Below, piece after piece: positions 7,652 through 14,795 of a DNA stretch of 64,000 nt (the first letter of the stretch is position 1; the number at the start of each line of letters is the position of its first letter). This DNA is from Allomuricauda sp. M10 (GTDB taxonomy: Bacteria > Bacteroidota > Bacteroidia > Flavobacteriales > Flavobacteriaceae). The DNA lies in contig NZ_JAJGBN010000004.1 in NCBI RefSeq assembly GCF_020782875.1, positions 186,001-250,000 on the forward strand, in the 5' to 3' direction. Position numbers and translations under genes: made by a program. Below the pieces are notes generated by a model, which had not been told where the DNA came from, searched no databases, and saw only the letters and a list, made by a program, of their open reading frames with translations.

Positions 7652-9406
7652 TTAATTTCGAACCACTAACGAAGGTAATTCCAGGTCGAACAGAAACTGG
7701 TTGGCACCTTTTAATCCCAATCTGAATACTTTGATCTCTTTACTTTGCAACTTGCTTCCATAATTTCTGTATATGGTAGCCTTTAAGTAAGTAGGCGTCA
7801 ATTGCTTATTGCCATGATAAGTCGCGTTCACTTTCCAGGTTCCCGGCAGTTCATCATCCAAGAGAAAGTCGGCCATCGAATAGCCCAGCTTCTTTTCGGA
7901 ACGAATGCGCTCTGGCATGTCCTCCATAGTATGCTTCCAGTTGAAATATTGATTGTTTGGGTTCACAAACTGCAGGTCGAACTCCGCTTCGGAATCGTTC
8001 CATTCAAAAACCAATCTTGTGCTTATTCCCTGCTCCTCCAAGTTGAAGGTTCGCTCCCTAATTTTGGTAGTATTGTTATCGATAGCAAACAAATTATCAA
8101 GCTCCCGATCCATCATCTTGGATAAATCCAGACTATCCATTGGCAATAAACCTTCCTCCTGTAAATAGGCATGCCTTGCAAAAAGTGAAGTGGCGGATTC
8201 CGCCAACCCCAAGCTCCGATAACTATTGGCCATATCTACAAAGCTTTGGGCATATTCCGGACGCAGCATATACACATGTTTGTAGAGCTCATGTGCCTTT
8301 TCAAACCGATTTTGTGACTCGTACAAATAGGCCAGTACCTTCAACCAAACAGGATTTTCTTGGAACTGGACAACGTTTTCATCCAAAATCTTATCGGCTT
8401 CTTTCCCACCATATTTTTCAAACATCAACCTATAACAATCCAAATAGAAATAGGGAACCTTGGAGAACAATTTTTCATATTCAGCATAGATCCTAAGGGT
8501 TTCCTCTAAACTAGATGCCCCATCCATCATTTTTAAATAAGAAGGGTATTCCTCCTTCAGTTCTGTATTGGATACCACCTTCCCAATCACAAAATTGCTA
8601 CGTAGCCTTGCCTTGTCATAATGCTTGTTGCTGTCCTCCTCCCTTAAACCATGTACACCATTGACCGTATTAATGACCACAACCCCACCGCTGGCAATAT
8701 GGCCATAACGCCAAACAGCCTGTAGTCCCGGGATAATCCCTACCCGAAGTACCATGGAAACATCCAACCAGTTCGGTGGATCGGTATGGATCATACCGTC
8801 AACCTCGTAGAGTACCGGTATTTTTTTCAATGAAGACCCCAAAGTTCTAGTCATGAATAAGGTGCGAACGGGTACTTTATCAGGATAATAAGTTTCTACA
8901 TTTATGCCTGACCTTCTACTGGCAATGGCTAACAACAAATCCATTCCAGGATGGAATTCTGAGCCATCTATCACCTTAAGATGATAAGCACTTGTAGCTG
9001 GACTGATATAACCGAAGGAGGTGTTGACCACTGTAGAATCCGTAAAATAATCCATGGCCAGTTTTTTCTGTCTACTGATTTTCTTTTCAACCACGACTTC
9101 ATCCAACTGTTCCACCTTGGGATACATTTTGATATTCAGAATATGGGTGACATCCTCCACAATAATTGAAATTGTGTCCATGCCAAGGTAGGTAAACCTC
9201 AATTCTTCCTTTGGCCGAGCCTGAATCACATATAAACCATTGTCATCAGAGCCTGTTGTTGTACCAGAAGCAATATTGGTAATATGAACACTGGGCAATG
9301 ATTTGCCATCATTGGTAATGCGGCCCTTAACGATATTTTGTCCCAAAAGGGTTCCAATGGAACAAAAGATAACTATTAAGGATGTACAGGTTCTCATCAT
9401 GAACAA
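7652..9406 (-). CDS. CarboxypepD_reg / TonB-plug / TPR / DUF2135-like protein (paralogue 3)
   Basis: 584 residues. A signal peptide (MMRTCTSLIVIFCSIGTLLG) precedes a CarboxypepD_reg beta sandwich (VKGRITNDGKSLPSVHI, ending LDEVVVEKK), a TonB-receptor plug-like region (IPVLYEVDG ... GGVVVINTVNG), a TPR-like helical part (LKVLAYLYESQNRFEKAHELYK; SFVDMANSYRSLGLAES) and a C-terminal beta domain (LVFEWNDSEAEFDLQFVNP ... GYSMADFLLDDELPGTW ... YRNYGSKLQSKE) that resembles DUF2135 (YfaP-like). There is no room for a 22-strand barrel, so it is not a TonB-dependent transporter. It is the third of three tandem paralogues, 10 bp after the one at 9417. Role unknown; probably periplasmic or outer-membrane associated. 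Confidence 0.75.
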   Translation of the reverse strand: MFMMRTCTSLIVIFCSIGTLLGQNIVKGRITNDGKSLPSVHITNIASGTTTGSDDNGLYVIQARPKEELRFTYLGMDTISIIVEDVTHILNIKMYPKVEQLDEVVVEKKISRQKKLAMDYFTDSTVVNTSFGYISPATSAYHLKVIDGSEFHPGMDLLLAIASRRSGINVETYYPDKVPVRTLFMTRTLGSSLKKIPVLYEVDGMIHTDPPNWLDVSMVLRVGIIPGLQAVWRYGHIASGGVVVINTVNGVHGLREEDSNKHYDKARLRSNFVIGKVVSNTELKEEYPSYLKMMDGASSLEETLRIYAEYEKLFSKVPYFYLDCYRLMFEKYGGKEADKILDENVVQFQENPVWLKVLAYLYESQNRFEKAHELYKHVYMLRPEYAQSFVDMANSYRSLGLAESATSLFARHAYLQEEGLLPMDSLDLSKMMDRELDNLFAIDNNTTKIRERTFNLEEQGISTRLVFEWNDSEAEFDLQFVNPNNQYFNWKHTMEDMPERIRSEKKLGYSMADFLLDDELPGTWKVNATYHGNKQLTPTYLKATIYRNYGSKLQSKEIKVFRLGLKGANQFLFDLELPSLVVRN

Positions 9407-9416
9407 ATCCGATGTC

Positions 9417-11165
9417 TTAATTGTGGGCCACCACAGAGGGCAGCTTCAGATTGAACAGGTGCTGGTTGTAGCCGGTCAGTCCAAGCTTGAACACTTTGAC
9501 CTCCTTACTCTGTAACTTGCTCCCATAGTTTCTATAAACAGTAACTTTTAAATAGGTGGGAGTGAGTTGTTTGTTTCCTAAATAATTTGCATTGATGCTC
9601 CATGTCCCTGGAAGTTTATCATCCAACAAAAAGTCGGCCATGGAGTAGCCCAGTTCTTTTTCGGAATAGATTCTGTCCGGCATATCTTCCATGGTATGTT
9701 TCCATTGAAAATATTGGTTTTCGGGATTTACAAATTGAAGGTCAAATTCGGCTTCCGAATCGTTCCATTCAAAGACCAATCTTGTGCTAATGCCCTCCTC
9801 TTCCAACAAAACTTTTCTTTTACTGATTTTAAGGGTCCCATTGTCCAATGCGAAGAGATTTTCCAGTTCACGTTCCATAATCTTGGCAAGGTCAACAGTA
9901 TCCCTAGGCAACAACCCTTCATCCAAAAGATAGGCGTGCCTTGCGTATAGAGAAGCCGCCGCTTCAGGATTTTTCAAGTTACGGTAGCTATTGGCCATAT
10001 CAATAAAACTCTGGGCATAATCTGGCCGTAGGGTGTATACTTCTTTATAAATTTCGTGGGCATTCTGCCATCTTCCTTCCGATTCATAGCTATAGGCCAA
10101 TGCCTTTAAAGCCACTGGATTGTTTTCAAATGCACTTTTTTGGTCGGAAATGATTTTATCCGCAAAATCCTGATCGTTCCACTGCTCCATAAAGTATTGG
10201 TAGTTATCCAATGTAAACCAATAGGAACCAGAATAGGCCCTGGCATTCTTTTCGTATAAAGCGATGGCATCGGATTTCTGTGGACTGGTATAAAGATCCT
10301 TTACATATTGGGGGGCATTATTGGCTACCTTTTCGGTCCCCAAAGCCCTTTGATCATAAAAATTGTTCCTGAGCTTGGCACGATCAAAAGGTTTGCCATC
10401 GTTTTCTTTTGTTGTGACTGTTCCAGCTTTAGTATTGATGATTACCACTCCGCCTTTCCCCATGGCCCCATATCGTGTAAGGGCTGCATAAGAAGGTATA
10501 AAGGCAATCCTTCTCACATTTCCATTGAGCCAGCTGCAATTCACTTCGGTCAAAATTTGCCCATCCACATCAAAAATGGCATCGCCAGCAAGCGTTAAGC
10601 TATTTGTTGGTCTCATGGCCACAATGAACTTATCTGTATCCGGTCTACAACTTGCGTATATCCCCGCAAACCTTCCATTGACCAAAAAATTAAGATTAGG
10701 GGCCTTGTCCACTTCTTCCTCACCTATTATCCGTAATGAAAAATTGGATGTGTTCTTGTCCATAAAACCAAAAGCCGTTTTGATGACATTGGGATTGGTA
10801 TCATATTCCAGTTCCAGTTCTTTTTGGCTTTTTAAAATGGTTTTGGATACGGTAACCTCGTCCAACTCTTCCACTTTTTGGGGTAATTTCACATTCAAGA
10901 CCCTGGTAACATCTTCCACCTTTATCTTCACCGTCTTCATCCCCACATGGGAATACACCAAAATCTCCCCTTTTTGGGTTTCTATCTCATATTTTCCACC
11001 GCTATCCGAAACCGTACCCTTTTCAGTACCTTCAATTTGTACACTTACATTTTTAAGGGGACCAAAATCATCGGAAATGGTACCATAGACCGTTTTTGAG
11101 TTTTCTTGGGCCAAGGAAATGGCCATGAATAGAAAAAAGGAACAGAATGCAGCATTTTTTTTCAT
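9417..11165 (-). CDS. CarboxypepD_reg / TonB-plug / TPR / DUF2135-like protein (paralogue 2)
   Basis: 582 residues and the closest relative of the 7652-9406 product; the C-terminal ~110 residues are nearly the same. Signal peptide MKKNAAFCSFFLFMAISLAQ, then CarboxypepD_reg (VYGTISDDFGPLKNVSVQI, LDEVTVSKT), plug-like region (IFDVDGQILTEVN; GAMGKGGVVIINTKAG), TPR-like repeats (LKALAYSYESEGRWQNAHEIYK; SFIDMANSYRNLKNPEA) and the DUF2135-like domain (LVFEWNDSEAEFDLQF). No beta-barrel. It starts 55 bp after the vWA paralogue's stop. The near-identity of the C-terminal domains indicates recent duplication or ongoing gene conversion. Confidence 0.75.
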   Translation of the reverse strand: MKKNAAFCSFFLFMAISLAQENSKTVYGTISDDFGPLKNVSVQIEGTEKGTVSDSGGKYEIETQKGEILVYSHVGMKTVKIKVEDVTRVLNVKLPQKVEELDEVTVSKTILKSQKELELEYDTNPNVIKTAFGFMDKNTSNFSLRIIGEEEVDKAPNLNFLVNGRFAGIYASCRPDTDKFIVAMRPTNSLTLAGDAIFDVDGQILTEVNCSWLNGNVRRIAFIPSYAALTRYGAMGKGGVVIINTKAGTVTTKENDGKPFDRAKLRNNFYDQRALGTEKVANNAPQYVKDLYTSPQKSDAIALYEKNARAYSGSYWFTLDNYQYFMEQWNDQDFADKIISDQKSAFENNPVALKALAYSYESEGRWQNAHEIYKEVYTLRPDYAQSFIDMANSYRNLKNPEAAASLYARHAYLLDEGLLPRDTVDLAKIMERELENLFALDNGTLKISKRKVLLEEEGISTRLVFEWNDSEAEFDLQFVNPENQYFQWKHTMEDMPDRIYSEKELGYSMADFLLDDKLPGTWSINANYLGNKQLTPTYLKVTVYRNYGSKLQSKEVKVFKLGLTGYNQHLFNLKLPSVVAHN

Positions 11166-11221
11166 AGCAGTTTTTTTAAGAAATGTACTATTTCCATGCT
11201 TAAGTTACTAAATAATGGCAT

Positions 11222-13411
11222 TCAATTGACATGCAGGGACTTGATGTTACGCTTTTCGTCCCTCTCGGTAAAGTATACCACAAGCTGCTCCTCCTTTTGG
11301 TCAGGCTTGCCAAAGTTCGTGTAGAGATTACATTTCAACACCAAGGGCAGGGCGTCCGTTTCCGATAGGTTTCCCAAAAATTTGGCGTTCACCACCCAAT
11401 TGCCCTTCGCCTCTTGGCCATAGAACTCGAATTCCTCCATGGTCAGGCCCTCCTCGATGCCCTGTTTTATCCTTTCTGGTTTGGCATTGGAATATTCCCA
11501 GTTGAAGAACCGGTTCTGAGGGTTCACGAACTGGATCTCGAACTCCGCCTCCGGGTTGTTCCACTCAAAGACAAAGCGTGCATCGTACATGACATTGTTC
11601 CGGTATTTGGGGTCCACTTGGGTCACATCCATCTGTCCCCCTTTTTGATGGATCAGGTTTTTGATGTCCCTATCCAAGGTCTTGGATATCAAGAAGGTCC
11701 TCAGATTCTGAAAGCCCTGTCCCCCGTTGCACAGGGCAATGAGGGCATCCAGTTCCCCTTTAGGTGAGCCATTCCCCAAATAATGCACCTTGTTGTAATT
11801 GGCCTGGAGATTGCCACCGTCCAGACGGAGCACTTGATCGTTCACAAGGGCCGCCAGTTCATTTTTCCCCAATTGGGACAGGCATAGCTCCACCATCTTG
11901 AGGATACGCCCATCATCGGGGTGCAGCTCCCAAAGATCGGTGATCACTTGGGCTGCCTTGGTTTTGTCCCTTTCCGCGAAAAAGGCATAACTGTCCAGAT
12001 AGAACTTCAGGTTGTCCAGGTTCAAACTCCGTAGGGAAAGATAGGTCACAAAAGATCCCTCCAGGTTTTCGGCCTGGGCGAACAGATTATAAAAGGGGGA
12101 ATCCCCTGGCGTTGCCAATCGCTCCTCCTTGTCGTACACGTTGTTCTTCAACCTTGCCCTGTCCTCTACTTGGCCCTCGTTCACCGTGGGCACCTTGGCG
12201 GTCTTGGTGGTGATGAGCAACACCCCGTTGCGGCCTATTTCACCATATTTGTTGGTGGCGGCCAGTCCCTTCAGGACGGTGATACTGGCAATGCTGTTGG
12301 GATCCAAGAAATTAAAGCGTGCCAAATGATTAGTAGCTGAACTAGATTGCTCCATGGGAATGCCATTGACGACCACAAGCCCATAATTGTTACCCAGCAT
12401 GGTCCAGTCCGTCCTCATTTTCACCAATCCCAATTCCGGTTCCTGGCCCGGGGCAGCGGATTTTACTTCCACACCGGAAAAGCGGTTCTGTACCACCGTG
12501 GAGACATTGGTGTTGATATCCGTGATCTGGTCTTCCCCTATGGTCTGTATGGCCACCCCTACCCGTTTCTCATCAATATCCCCGTACGCCGTGGCCTTGG
12601 TGACCAACTTTTCCTTGCGTTCCTCTACCAGCACCACTTCGTCCAGGGCCACTACCTTGGAGGATAGGAAGATCTTATTGTTGTCCATATCGGACACGGC
12701 ATAATCCAATACTGCCCCTTTTTCACCACCGCGTATGTAGAGACTGTCGTTCCTGCTTGCGGGAATACTGAAATTTCCCTCCGCATCGGTATAATAGAAC
12801 TCGTCCGTTCCCTTGATTCCAATGGCCACATGGGGAGAGGGCACATTATCAATATACACCCTTCCCGTCACCAAATTGCCCGTGGCATCAGCATTTTCCT
12901 GCCGGTTTCCAATGTCCAATATGGAAGCGTAATCCATCAACCTGGCACGATTGATCAAAGCGGTCCGCTTTAGGAAATCCTCATTTCTGGCCAGGGCGCT
13001 GTTGACGATTACACTGCCCTTCTCTAACAACAGCCGGTCCCCTTTGAAAAGGGCGTTGCCATCGGTGAACACGTATACCTTTTTGCCCTCTATCCTTTCA
13101 TTGAGCTGCGAATAGATCGTTGCTCCTGCGTAGGGAAGGTTTTCCAGTCTTTGTTTTAGGCTTGACCAATCGCCTCCCTCTACCCTATATCTTTCCTCGA
13201 TCACTTCCGTCCCGAATAGATAAAGGACGATTTTCTGGTCTGGTTTGTTCGCTATTGCCTTGCCCAAAAATTCGAATTCCTTTTCCACGTCCCTGTCCAT
13301 CATGGAAAGGGAGGTGTCCCAACAAATAAACAATTGTCCAGGATCTGCCTGCGGATACAGTTTCACGAACAGGCAGCTGAGTAGAATACAAAAGATCATA
13401 GGTAACCTCAT
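11222..13411 (-). CDS. vWA / CarboxypepD_reg / TonB-plug / TPR / DUF2135-like protein (paralogue 1)
   Basis: 729 residues. After a signal peptide (MRLPMIFCILLSCLFVKLYP) comes a von Willebrand A domain, about residues 25-160: CWDTSLSMMD gives the MIDAS DxSxS (Asp32, Ser34, Ser36), LPYAGATIY supplies the threonine position and VYVFTDGNALF the later aspartate. Then follow a CarboxypepD_reg domain (VTGRVYIDNVPSPHV), a plug-like region (YGLVVVNGIPME; GEIGRNGVLLITTKTAK), helical repeats and a DUF2135-like domain (FVFEWNNPEAEFEIQFVNP; CNLYTNFGKPDQKEE). Pairing vWA with DUF2135 is typical of VIT/vWA proteins, which supports the call. By eye its bases are clearly richer in G+C than its neighbours, hinting at a different history. 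It is the first-transcribed of the three tandem genes. Confidence 0.75.
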   Translation of the reverse strand: MRLPMIFCILLSCLFVKLYPQADPGQLFICWDTSLSMMDRDVEKEFEFLGKAIANKPDQKIVLYLFGTEVIEERYRVEGGDWSSLKQRLENLPYAGATIYSQLNERIEGKKVYVFTDGNALFKGDRLLLEKGSVIVNSALARNEDFLKRTALINRARLMDYASILDIGNRQENADATGNLVTGRVYIDNVPSPHVAIGIKGTDEFYYTDAEGNFSIPASRNDSLYIRGGEKGAVLDYAVSDMDNNKIFLSSKVVALDEVVLVEERKEKLVTKATAYGDIDEKRVGVAIQTIGEDQITDINTNVSTVVQNRFSGVEVKSAAPGQEPELGLVKMRTDWTMLGNNYGLVVVNGIPMEQSSSATNHLARFNFLDPNSIASITVLKGLAATNKYGEIGRNGVLLITTKTAKVPTVNEGQVEDRARLKNNVYDKEERLATPGDSPFYNLFAQAENLEGSFVTYLSLRSLNLDNLKFYLDSYAFFAERDKTKAAQVITDLWELHPDDGRILKMVELCLSQLGKNELAALVNDQVLRLDGGNLQANYNKVHYLGNGSPKGELDALIALCNGGQGFQNLRTFLISKTLDRDIKNLIHQKGGQMDVTQVDPKYRNNVMYDARFVFEWNNPEAEFEIQFVNPQNRFFNWEYSNAKPERIKQGIEEGLTMEEFEFYGQEAKGNWVVNAKFLGNLSETDALPLVLKCNLYTNFGKPDQKEEQLVVYFTERDEKRNIKSLHVN

Positions 13412-13448: not shown

Positions 13449-14795
13449 TCAGTTCCCTAATTGAGGTTTAGGTCGGGGGATGAGCAACATTTCGGTTTGT
13501 CTACCATTTACGTACCTAAAACCTTCTTCCCCATAAAATCCAGGTTCTTCCAGCATAATACGGATATCCCTGTTCCATTCGGGAATATTCACGGTGGCAT
13601 TCAGTTCTATGGCATACGCCGTATTGGGATTAAGTGGATAATTTTCCCCATCATCCTTCATCACACCACCTTGTGCATCCCACATTCCGATGGTTGTTCC
13701 TGCTGAATGCCCATAAGTACCCAAGGGATGGGTATAAATCGAGGGGCGAAGACCTGCATCCTTCGCAGCTTGAAGGGATTTGGCCAAAATATCGTTCCCC
13801 ACCCTTCCCTTGATCATATTCTGGGTCAGGAAATCCTGCACTCGGTTACCATCCTTAAAGGCGTTGACCAAAAATTCAGGGGCTTCCCTTTCGTCCGGTA
13901 ACAAAACATAGCCCATTTCTTGACAGTCCGTATTGAGTCTCAAGTAAGTGATACCAAAATCGCAATGCAACAAATCCCCAGGCAGGATCACTTTTTCAAC
14001 TTCACCTGCTGAAAATGCAGCTAGATGACTAACCAATCCTTCATTGTTTCTTTGGATATCCACTGTTGGATGAAACCACGTTTCCAAACCAAGATCGGTC
14101 ACTTTTTGACGCATCCACCATACCACATCGTCCGTAGTAGTGATGCCGGGTGTAATTACTTTTTCTGAAAAAGCTTCGGCAATAATACTGTGTGTAATAT
14201 CGGTCAATTGTGCAAAAATGGCCATTTCCCTCGGGGTCCGGGTCTCAATCCAACGTACGGCCAGCTGTTCTGCAGAACCAACTCTGGAATGATATTTTTT
14301 TGGAAGATTGGCCATGAACTCATCATAATCCGTCTTGTCCAAACCATCGGCAATGTTGTGATCCTTCGAAAAATTGAGCCCTATTTTCTTCGGATTTCGC
14401 TCTTCGATCAGTTCCATTAAACGTTTCCATTGATTGGGTTCCTGTTCCTTGTCCCAAGCGGAAATAATGCTCTTCCCTACGTTATATCGGGCAACTGCCA
14501 ATTTATCAATGGTGTTTTTGTCCTTGTTCCTATAAAATAACAAAATGGTGCGCCTTCTGGTATTTAACCAAGTAGCGGGCAACATGGTCTTTATTACAGG
14601 ATCTTCATTGTATTCCCTTGAAATCACTATCCACATATCAATTCCGGTGCGGTCCATTAACTCTGGTAGCAGGATGTTGAAGCGTTCTTCCAAAATTTCA
14701 TCCACCACACGGGCCCGCTCTACTTCGGGTAAAATTTCTTGAGCAAAAAAGGTAAATGGAATCAACAGAAAGATGAGTCGGATGGTTTTTTTCAT
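13449..14795 (-). CDS. secreted M24 family (Xaa-Pro aminopeptidase-like) metallopeptidase
   Basis: 448 residues with signal peptide MKKTIRLIFLLIPFTFFAQ. The N-terminal half is a creatinase-N-like domain; the C-terminal pita-bread fold shows the five metal ligands expected for M24: HCDFGIT and NTDCQEMG (Asp, Asp), the histidine in YTHPLGTYGHSAG, and glutamates in AIELNATV and ILLEEPGFYGEEG. It should remove N-terminal residues ahead of proline, or act on a related substrate, in the periplasm. It lies 32 bp after the menE stop and 37 bp before the vWA gene on the same strand, so it may be read through from the menC-CPBP-menE unit. Confidence 0.9.
   Translation of the reverse strand: MKKTIRLIFLLIPFTFFAQEILPEVERARVVDEILEERFNILLPELMDRTGIDMWIVISREYNEDPVIKTMLPATWLNTRRRTILLFYRNKDKNTIDKLAVARYNVGKSIISAWDKEQEPNQWKRLMELIEERNPKKIGLNFSKDHNIADGLDKTDYDEFMANLPKKYHSRVGSAEQLAVRWIETRTPREMAIFAQLTDITHSIIAEAFSEKVITPGITTTDDVVWWMRQKVTDLGLETWFHPTVDIQRNNEGLVSHLAAFSAGEVEKVILPGDLLHCDFGITYLRLNTDCQEMGYVLLPDEREAPEFLVNAFKDGNRVQDFLTQNMIKGRVGNDILAKSLQAAKDAGLRPSIYTHPLGTYGHSAGTTIGMWDAQGGVMKDDGENYPLNPNTAYAIELNATVNIPEWNRDIRIMLEEPGFYGEEGFRYVNGRQTEMLLIPRPKPQLGN

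Follow-up and report, generated by a model that had tools for sequence, protein, structure and literature searches.

Three tandem barrel-less plug proteins with TonB-box-like motifs in Allomuricauda sp. M10, akin to VIT-vWA-TPR-DUF2135 proteins of Bacteroidota

The 64,000-nucleotide stretch of Allomuricauda sp. M10 DNA analysed here (the window; contig NZ_JAJGBN010000004.1, positions 186,001 to 250,000) carries three tandem genes, A, B and C, whose products seem to combine the front end of a SusC-type receptor with domains of another origin. Gene A (11222..13411, minus strand, as are all features below; 729 codons) encodes a signal peptide, a vWA domain, an NTE (CarboxypepD_reg-like domain), a TonB-box-like motif, a TonB plug, a TPR region and a DUF2135-type domain. 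Gene B (9417..11165; 582 codons) encodes a signal peptide, an NTE, a TonB-box-like motif, a plug-like domain, a TPR region and a DUF2135-type domain, and gene C (7652..9406; 584 codons) has the architecture of B. The TTG start of C at 9406 is a mechanical call, and ATG at 9400 or 9397 is likelier. No barrel family was found among the Pfam matches of A, B and C, and their open reading frames (ORFs) stop after the DUF2135-type part. AlphaFold models of A and B, made from 37- and 39-row alignments with a mean predicted local distance difference test score (pLDDT) of 82.8 and 83.4, respectively, contain no 22-strand β-barrel of a SusC receptor. In a Pfam scan of the genome at E up to 1, A, B and C gave the only DUF2135 matches. 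A, B and C thus appear from sequences and models to be exported barrel-less proteins with a SusC-type NTE, a plug, a TPR region and a DUF2135-type end, the support being uneven from part to part. A preliminary description of this locus had proposed such a trio and was borne out, with Pfam supporting the plug in A only.

The vWA domain of A (residues 23-166; 12914..13345) was recognized by its fold and by the letters of its metal-ion-dependent adhesion site (MIDAS); no Pfam vWA match was listed for A at E up to 10. The fold aligned with 1sht at VIA-align Z 12.4, with a root-mean-square deviation (rmsd) of 3.6 over 141 aligned residues. The VIA-align comparisons extended mainly over residues 20-167 in A and over residues 22-99 and 280-460 in B; the DUF2135-type fold lay outside this coverage, and the lack of a family among these alignments does not count against it. 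The MIDAS letters of A are DTSLS, GAT and TDG, a predicted metal site in which we take DxSxS, the Thr/Ser and the Asp to be the metal ligands. Asp32-x-Ser34-x-Ser36, named correctly in the preliminary description, corresponds to a DxSxS motif retained in 23 of 24 A-type proteins; the remaining ligand positions are less regular. The NTE of A (residues 179-255; 12647..12877) was assigned by comparison with the SusC NTE 9hfj (VIA-align Z 12.1, rmsd 2.3, 79 aligned), its CarbopepD_reg_2 score of 18.6 bits being under the Pfam cut-off of 32.2. It is followed by the TonB-box-like LDEVVL (residues 256-261; 12629..12646) in a low-confidence linker, and by the plug (residues 282-404; 12200..12568), after which there is no barrel. 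The plug scores 41.5 bits for PF07715, against a cut-off of 23.9, and the A model aligns with SusC chains over 130-140 columns (E 1.4e-3 and weaker). The TPR-like region (residues 436-600; 11612..12106) was assigned from the helical model and from a family profile built partly from A. Pfam listed no TPR model for A at E up to 10; a relative of A (L049; relatives are cited by locus number) scores 33.3 bits for TPR_1, over the cut-off of 27.8. The DUF2135-type β domain (residues 606-729; 11225..11596) forms the C-terminus.

In B, the NTE (residues 24-99; 10869..11096) passes the Pfam cut-off for CarbopepD_reg_2 with 49.4 bits and fits 9hfj closely (VIA-align Z 14.8, rmsd 1.3, 79 aligned). The TonB-box-like LDEVTV (residues 101-106; 10848..10865) and the plug-like domain (residues 124-249; 10419..10796) come next. 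Pfam gave no plug for either B or C at E up to 10, and the domain in B was recognized in three other ways: the SusC/RagA model TIGR04056 covers residues 24-337 with 75.9 bits, residues 5-249 match a SusC chain, and by Foldseek the B model aligns with SusC 8aa4_A over 121 columns (rmsd 3.2, E 1.0e-3), to which the NTE may contribute part. A B-clade relative of 836 residues at L079 passes the cut-off for Pfam Plug with 37.0 bits. The models of A and B predict the plug-like fold that the preliminary description had read from the sequence. The TPR region of B (residues 277-449; 9819..10337) was assigned from a Pfam score below cut-off, the family profile and the model, and its DUF2135-type domain spans residues 459-575 (9441..9791). 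In C, the NTE (9110..9337) scores 33.5 bits for CarbopepD_reg_2, against 32.2, and is followed by the TonB-box-like LDEVVV (9089..9106), the plug-like domain (8588..9040), the TPR region (8063..8581; Pfam below cut-off, and the family profile) and the DUF2135-type domain (7679..8026; family profile). TIGR04056 covers only residues 26-118 of C (55.3 bits). The match of the C plug to the family profile, at 3e-43, is circular since C is among the profile sequences, and this plug is proposed from homology to B alone.

The LDEVVL, LDEVTV and LDEVVV of A, B and C stand at the junction of NTE and plug, a feature that the preliminary description did not mention. Among the complete family members, 82 have both an NTE and a plug, and 68 of these carry a strict LDEVxV-type motif at this junction; the other 22-residue stretches taken from NTE-bearing members number 2418, and 6 of them show it. 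The pattern was defined after the sequences had been viewed, and many of the counted rows are paralogues. The 14 members missing the strict motif carry near variants. The motif sits in segments with pLDDT below 50 (residues 253-285 of A and 100-109 of B), and the linkers carrying it are presumably flexible. In conservation, the motif window ranks 35th of 577 among 44 B-clade proteins (mean 0.696) and 36th of 724 among 24 A-type proteins (mean 0.689), and the other low-confidence segments tested had values of 0.23-0.46. Both the position and the letters of LDEVxV agree with the boxes of this genome's SusC proteins and with VDEVVV of Bt1763, a TonB box whose deletion or replacement by alanines impaired growth on levan (PMC7782687). 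The trio and the N-terminal part of SusC/RagA proteins (TIGR04056) have in common the order NTE, TonB box, plug; the trio differs in lacking the barrel, and the front end is embedded in a TPR/DUF2135 or a VIT/vWA/TPR/DUF2135 protein. The box between NTE and plug that characterizes SusC is present in the trio as a sequence motif only. The motif is no automatic companion of a plug, since the same genome encodes three barrel-less plug proteins from other families (L177, L178 and L180) that lack it.

We tentatively read A, B and C as soluble periplasmic TonB clients or adaptors, a reading to which we give somewhat less than an even chance. The SusC-type front end (NTE, TonB box and plug) would have been kept without the barrel and fused to a binding platform of TPR and DUF2135-type parts, and the MIDAS vWA domain of A may be an additional binding part. 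The C-terminal domain of TonB would bind the exposed LDEVxV box, and the Ton motor might then recruit, pull on or release the protein together with a partner held by the TPR, the DUF2135-type domain and, in A, the vWA domain. We infer the periplasmic location, the binding to TonB, the cargo and the coupling to force; the domain content, the lack of a barrel, the conservation of the motif, and the VIT-vWA kinship and recurrent address described below are what sequences and models indicate. The preliminary description had offered two possibilities, adaptors for a TonB-dependent barrel or SusC-like complex and a secreted scaffold assembled by metal-dependent adhesion. In the first, the adaptor role as such is plausible and is supported by the TonB-box-like motif; the second is not supported, as set out in the next paragraph.

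The C-terminal part connects the trio to a wider family. In protein scans, the DUF2135 scores were below the cut-off of 22 bits (A 13.1, B 20.1, C 16.9); in the genome scan B reached 24.5 bits, the sole pass of the cut-off by the trio. A profile of 20 short members, with no long ones, recognized the corresponding part in 18 long VIT-type proteins, with E values from 5e-24 to 3e-11. Pfam scanning covered 10 of these 18, and all 10 passed the DUF2135 cut-off. The C-terminal likeness to DUF2135 claimed in the preliminary description is thus upheld as a relationship. By sequence, the trio looks akin to the VIT-vWA-TPR-DUF2135 proteins of Bacteroidota, which have about 1000-1200 residues and are inter-alpha-trypsin heavy-chain-like. 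The two groups are alike in kinship and in the order vWA, TPR, DUF2135, and they differ in that the trio has no VIT domain (none of the three has one among its Pfam matches at E up to 10) and that B and C have no vWA domain. VIT was found in 10 of the 13 Pfam-scanned members of at least 996 residues, the exceptions (L059, L062 and L066) making up an extra-NTE group. With a TPR-DUF2135 profile, relatives were found in 47 of 149 sampled Flavobacteriaceae genomes, one genome per genus, and a phylum-wide sample of 296 genomes had them in 28; open frames of 997-1234 residues hold 16 of the 18 phylum hits outside Flavobacteriaceae. Carriers include Maribacter, Robiginitalea, Allomuricauda, Croceitalea, Kordia and Lacinutrix. 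Excluded before counting were L072, which duplicates L055, and L108, whose frames are broken; open-ended ORFs were also left out of the tree and the motif count. In a 98-row tree built on the shared TPR-DUF2135 part, the B/C clade comprises 44 rows with support 100/99, the A-type rows do not form one resolved clade, the extra-NTE group is placed with short kin, and the 491-residue L096 falls among the long VIT forms. The longest array, in an uncultured Croceitalea (L079:5931-15995), has five tandem family genes, one with its NTE-plug part doubled. No vWA match was found in 51 of the 98 rows, B and C included. This last count bears on the idea of a secreted or surface scaffold joined by MIDAS-dependent adhesion, which we consider very improbable: the MIDAS motif of A, retained by most A-type relatives, would suit it, and against it stand the many rows with no vWA match, the NCBIfam matches, taken at E up to 10, which include no type IX sorting domain, and a lipobox-like sequence in only 1 of 101 complete family ORFs.

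Among the long relatives, the interval between vWA and TPR is variable. Against a profile built from seven of this genome's SusC ORFs, 6 of 18 slots scored above all 900 shuffles (best shuffle 6.2 bits). A box and a plug are present in the slots of L067, L068, L158 and L164, and a box with a partial plug in those of L160 (23.5 bits) and L174 (14.1 bits). The L067 slot matches positions 2-225 of the 981 positions of TIGR04056 at E 1.2e-83, and the L157 slot holds a TonB_C domain (25.0 bits, cut-off 24.6). The preliminary description had the barrel replaced by the TPR and DUF2135-like parts. The barrel is indeed absent; a simple swap within a receptor does not describe this family, which is a VIT-vWA-TPR-DUF2135 family with a SusC module in the middle slot of some members. 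A plug tree was built with every third B-type row, the window's own proteins and every second SusC row. In it the plugs from the four long forms that carry one are placed among those of SusC proteins, and neither a single clade for the whole family (p-AU 0.296) nor one for the long forms (p-AU 0.547) was rejected, so that the tree is compatible with capture of the plug once or several times. Fragments resembling TonB-dependent transporters, noticed on visual inspection of the L163, L169 and L170 slots, were dropped as they did not exceed the shuffles; nor did the slots of L162, L167 and L173, where Pfam gives only an NTE-type domain (below cut-off in L173). The long VIT form L164 (5719-9381) has two TonB-box-like motifs, at residues 712 and 777, as if box segments were stacked.

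Several observations weigh against a role as TonB clients. Being soluble, such a client would lack an anchor in the membrane that the motor could pull against. The TonB_C match of L157 is barely over its cut-off and is a single case. Neither a box or plug above shuffles nor a TonB_C match was found in 11 of the 18 long relatives (10 of the 18 having been Pfam-scanned), which suggests that the chassis works without them. Three BamP relatives of this genome carry an NTE with an LxEVVV or LEEVIV motif, which suggests that the motif is not specific for TonB and accompanies this kind of NTE; packing against the NTE could partly explain its conservation. Some of these points would fit instead a periplasmic scaffold independent of TonB, in which the SusC front end, captured once or more often, would serve for binding or as a spacer, with the box left over as a relic or playing a structural part as a strand. 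We consider such a scaffold rather unlikely. It would agree with the 11 long relatives that have no box-plug segment, with the drift of the plug in short forms (Pfam lists no plug for B or C) and with the recurrence of barrel-less plug pieces in unrelated proteins (an NTE-plug protein, a 132-residue plug and an M56-plug protein below cut-off). It is harder to reconcile with a motif that is near-invariant in a low-confidence linker amid drifting surroundings, and with the plug of A, which is conserved like the DUF2135-type part of the same protein (0.555 versus 0.539).

The BamP relatives raise another explanation, namely that the trio serves the β-barrel assembly machinery (BAM) in an accessory role. 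The NTE would dock on the POTRA domains of BamA as BamP does, and the linker and plug-like part would lie at or inside BamA, perhaps during assembly of TonB-dependent receptors. In Flavobacterium johnsoniae, the N-terminal domain of BamP binds BamA POTRA 4 and 5 and the linker enters BamA (PMC12611786). The NCBIfam BamP model (NF053692) matches C (7.4e-12) and B (2.7e-10) over the signal peptide and NTE only, ending at residue 110-115, and was not listed for A at E up to 10. BamP 9n2d_E aligns with the B model (VIA-align Z 10.7, rmsd 2.9, 80 residues), though several unrelated folds reach 11-12. The BamP relatives of this genome (three, at L181:1294-2825 and L182:692-1471, below the NCBIfam cut-off) have a SusC-like NTE followed by LxEVVV or LEEVIV, and from their sequences the BamP and SusC front ends look related. 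BamP resembles the trio in being exported and barrel-less with an NTE, and differs in having a linker and a three-helix end in place of plug, TPR and DUF2135. The scores of C and B, 45.2 and 40.1 bits, are far from the cut-off of 230, and membership in BamP was rejected; SusC scores higher for both (75.9 for B and 55.3 for C). Further, L053 has no NTE match, yet it retains LEEVVV and the plug, and the F. johnsoniae BAM complex is reported with BamA, D, G, H, M and P only (PMC12611786). On balance, an accessory role in BAM is unlikely.

It is less likely still that the plug acts as a decoy, entering a plug-less or open SusC-type barrel to gate or chaperone it, an idea that goes back to the preliminary description. 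The plug fold predicted in the A and B models and the 54 other plug matches in this genome are in keeping with a decoy; receptors, however, have their own plug, and the plugs of B and C have diverged. No constant receptor-gene partner was seen among the loci compared: one NTE-bearing ORF cluster, perhaps including receptors, occurs at 13 loci, at a distance of 99 bp in the closest case and of at least 1.4 kb in the eleven listed after it.

Other barrel-less uses of receptor and TonB pieces were seen in this genome. L177 (954-1625) encodes a 223-residue NTE-plug protein, and L178 (1409-1807) a 132-residue plug-only protein near a sigma-factor-like ORF. An M56 (BlaR1-type) protein (L180:1940-3706) ends in a plug below cut-off, and another (L179:946-2757) has TonB_C followed by an NTE-like domain below cut-off. 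The M56 proteins use these pieces in places comparable to those of the trio, and differ in having no TPR or DUF2135; L180 has no box motif. The alternation of plug and TonB_C in M56 proteins somewhat resembles that in the VIT-vWA family. Four TonB_C proteins of this genome score above cut-off. No PADLOC match to a defence system was found at E up to 0.01.

To our knowledge, the known cellular clients of TonB are outer-membrane receptors. If the reading of A, B and C as TonB clients is true, soluble TonB-box proteins would mean that the Ton motor works inside the periplasm, or that competing clients tune the motor. A broader proposal, more doubtful than that reading, is that Bacteroidota hold a class of soluble periplasmic TonB clients in which pore-less front ends couple the Ton motor to VIT/vWA/TPR/DUF2135 machines, with TonB_C in the same slot of a relative. 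A link between vWA proteins and the Ton/Tol motor may be less odd given a published suggestion that certain vWA proteins act as force transducers driven by a motor, though those are tethered in the inner membrane (PMC12204202). All the domains are known. The literature searched, which covered few subscription papers, gave no description of the family, of its address or of a pore-less TonB-box-like motif, and a search on DUF2135 returned no paper; the assembly, the recurrent address and the conserved pore-less motif are apparently undescribed. For annotation, 'plug domain' proteins of Bacteroidota need not be receptors. The relatives are common, often at one address, and amenable to a test by point mutation.

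Upstream of A lies an M24-family peptidase gene (13449..14795; PF00557 34.5 bits) with a signal-peptide-like start. The gaps are 37 bp from the M24 gene to A, 56 bp from A to B and 16 bp from B to C (with C from ATG 9400). With these gaps, the M24 gene, A, B and C are probably co-transcribed. In 33 of the 65 distinct listed loci (window excluded), both flanks can be seen and the family genes have an acyl-CoA carboxylase gene on one side and menE or the M24 gene on the other; the loci were picked by similarity to the trio, and the architecture and address counts do not describe a random sample. Five further loci show one flank (L069, L079, L084, L126 and L135), and the others are elsewhere or on uninformative contigs. 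Two of the 33 (L067 and L158) have the long VIT-vWA-NTE-plug-TPR-DUF2135 form at this address, and 31 have short forms (L108 with broken frames). In the synteny listing, the M24 gene adjoins the family genes on one side at 30 of the 31 short-form loci (the exception being L096); this listing shows window-matching genes only, and unlisted genes may intervene (the gap in L171 is about 2.8 kb). This pattern fits derivation of the short forms in place from the long form by domain loss and duplication; an alternative is replacement in place. The M24-family protein, found in 54 of 149 Flavobacteriaceae genomes at E up to 1e-60, is tied to the short forms, being present in 32 of 36 genomes with them versus 22 of 113 without (uncorrected for kinship, and partly one locus); for this count a short form was taken as a frame of 400-760 residues, a limit that we set. 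It is present in 34 of 47 family-bearing genomes versus 20 of 102 others, again uncorrected for kinship. At L108 (6745-8037) and nine other loci, a cluster of exported-looking NTE-bearing ORFs lies mostly within 100 bp of family genes; the L108 ORF has 430 residues with LNEV after the NTE, and may encode a further partner.

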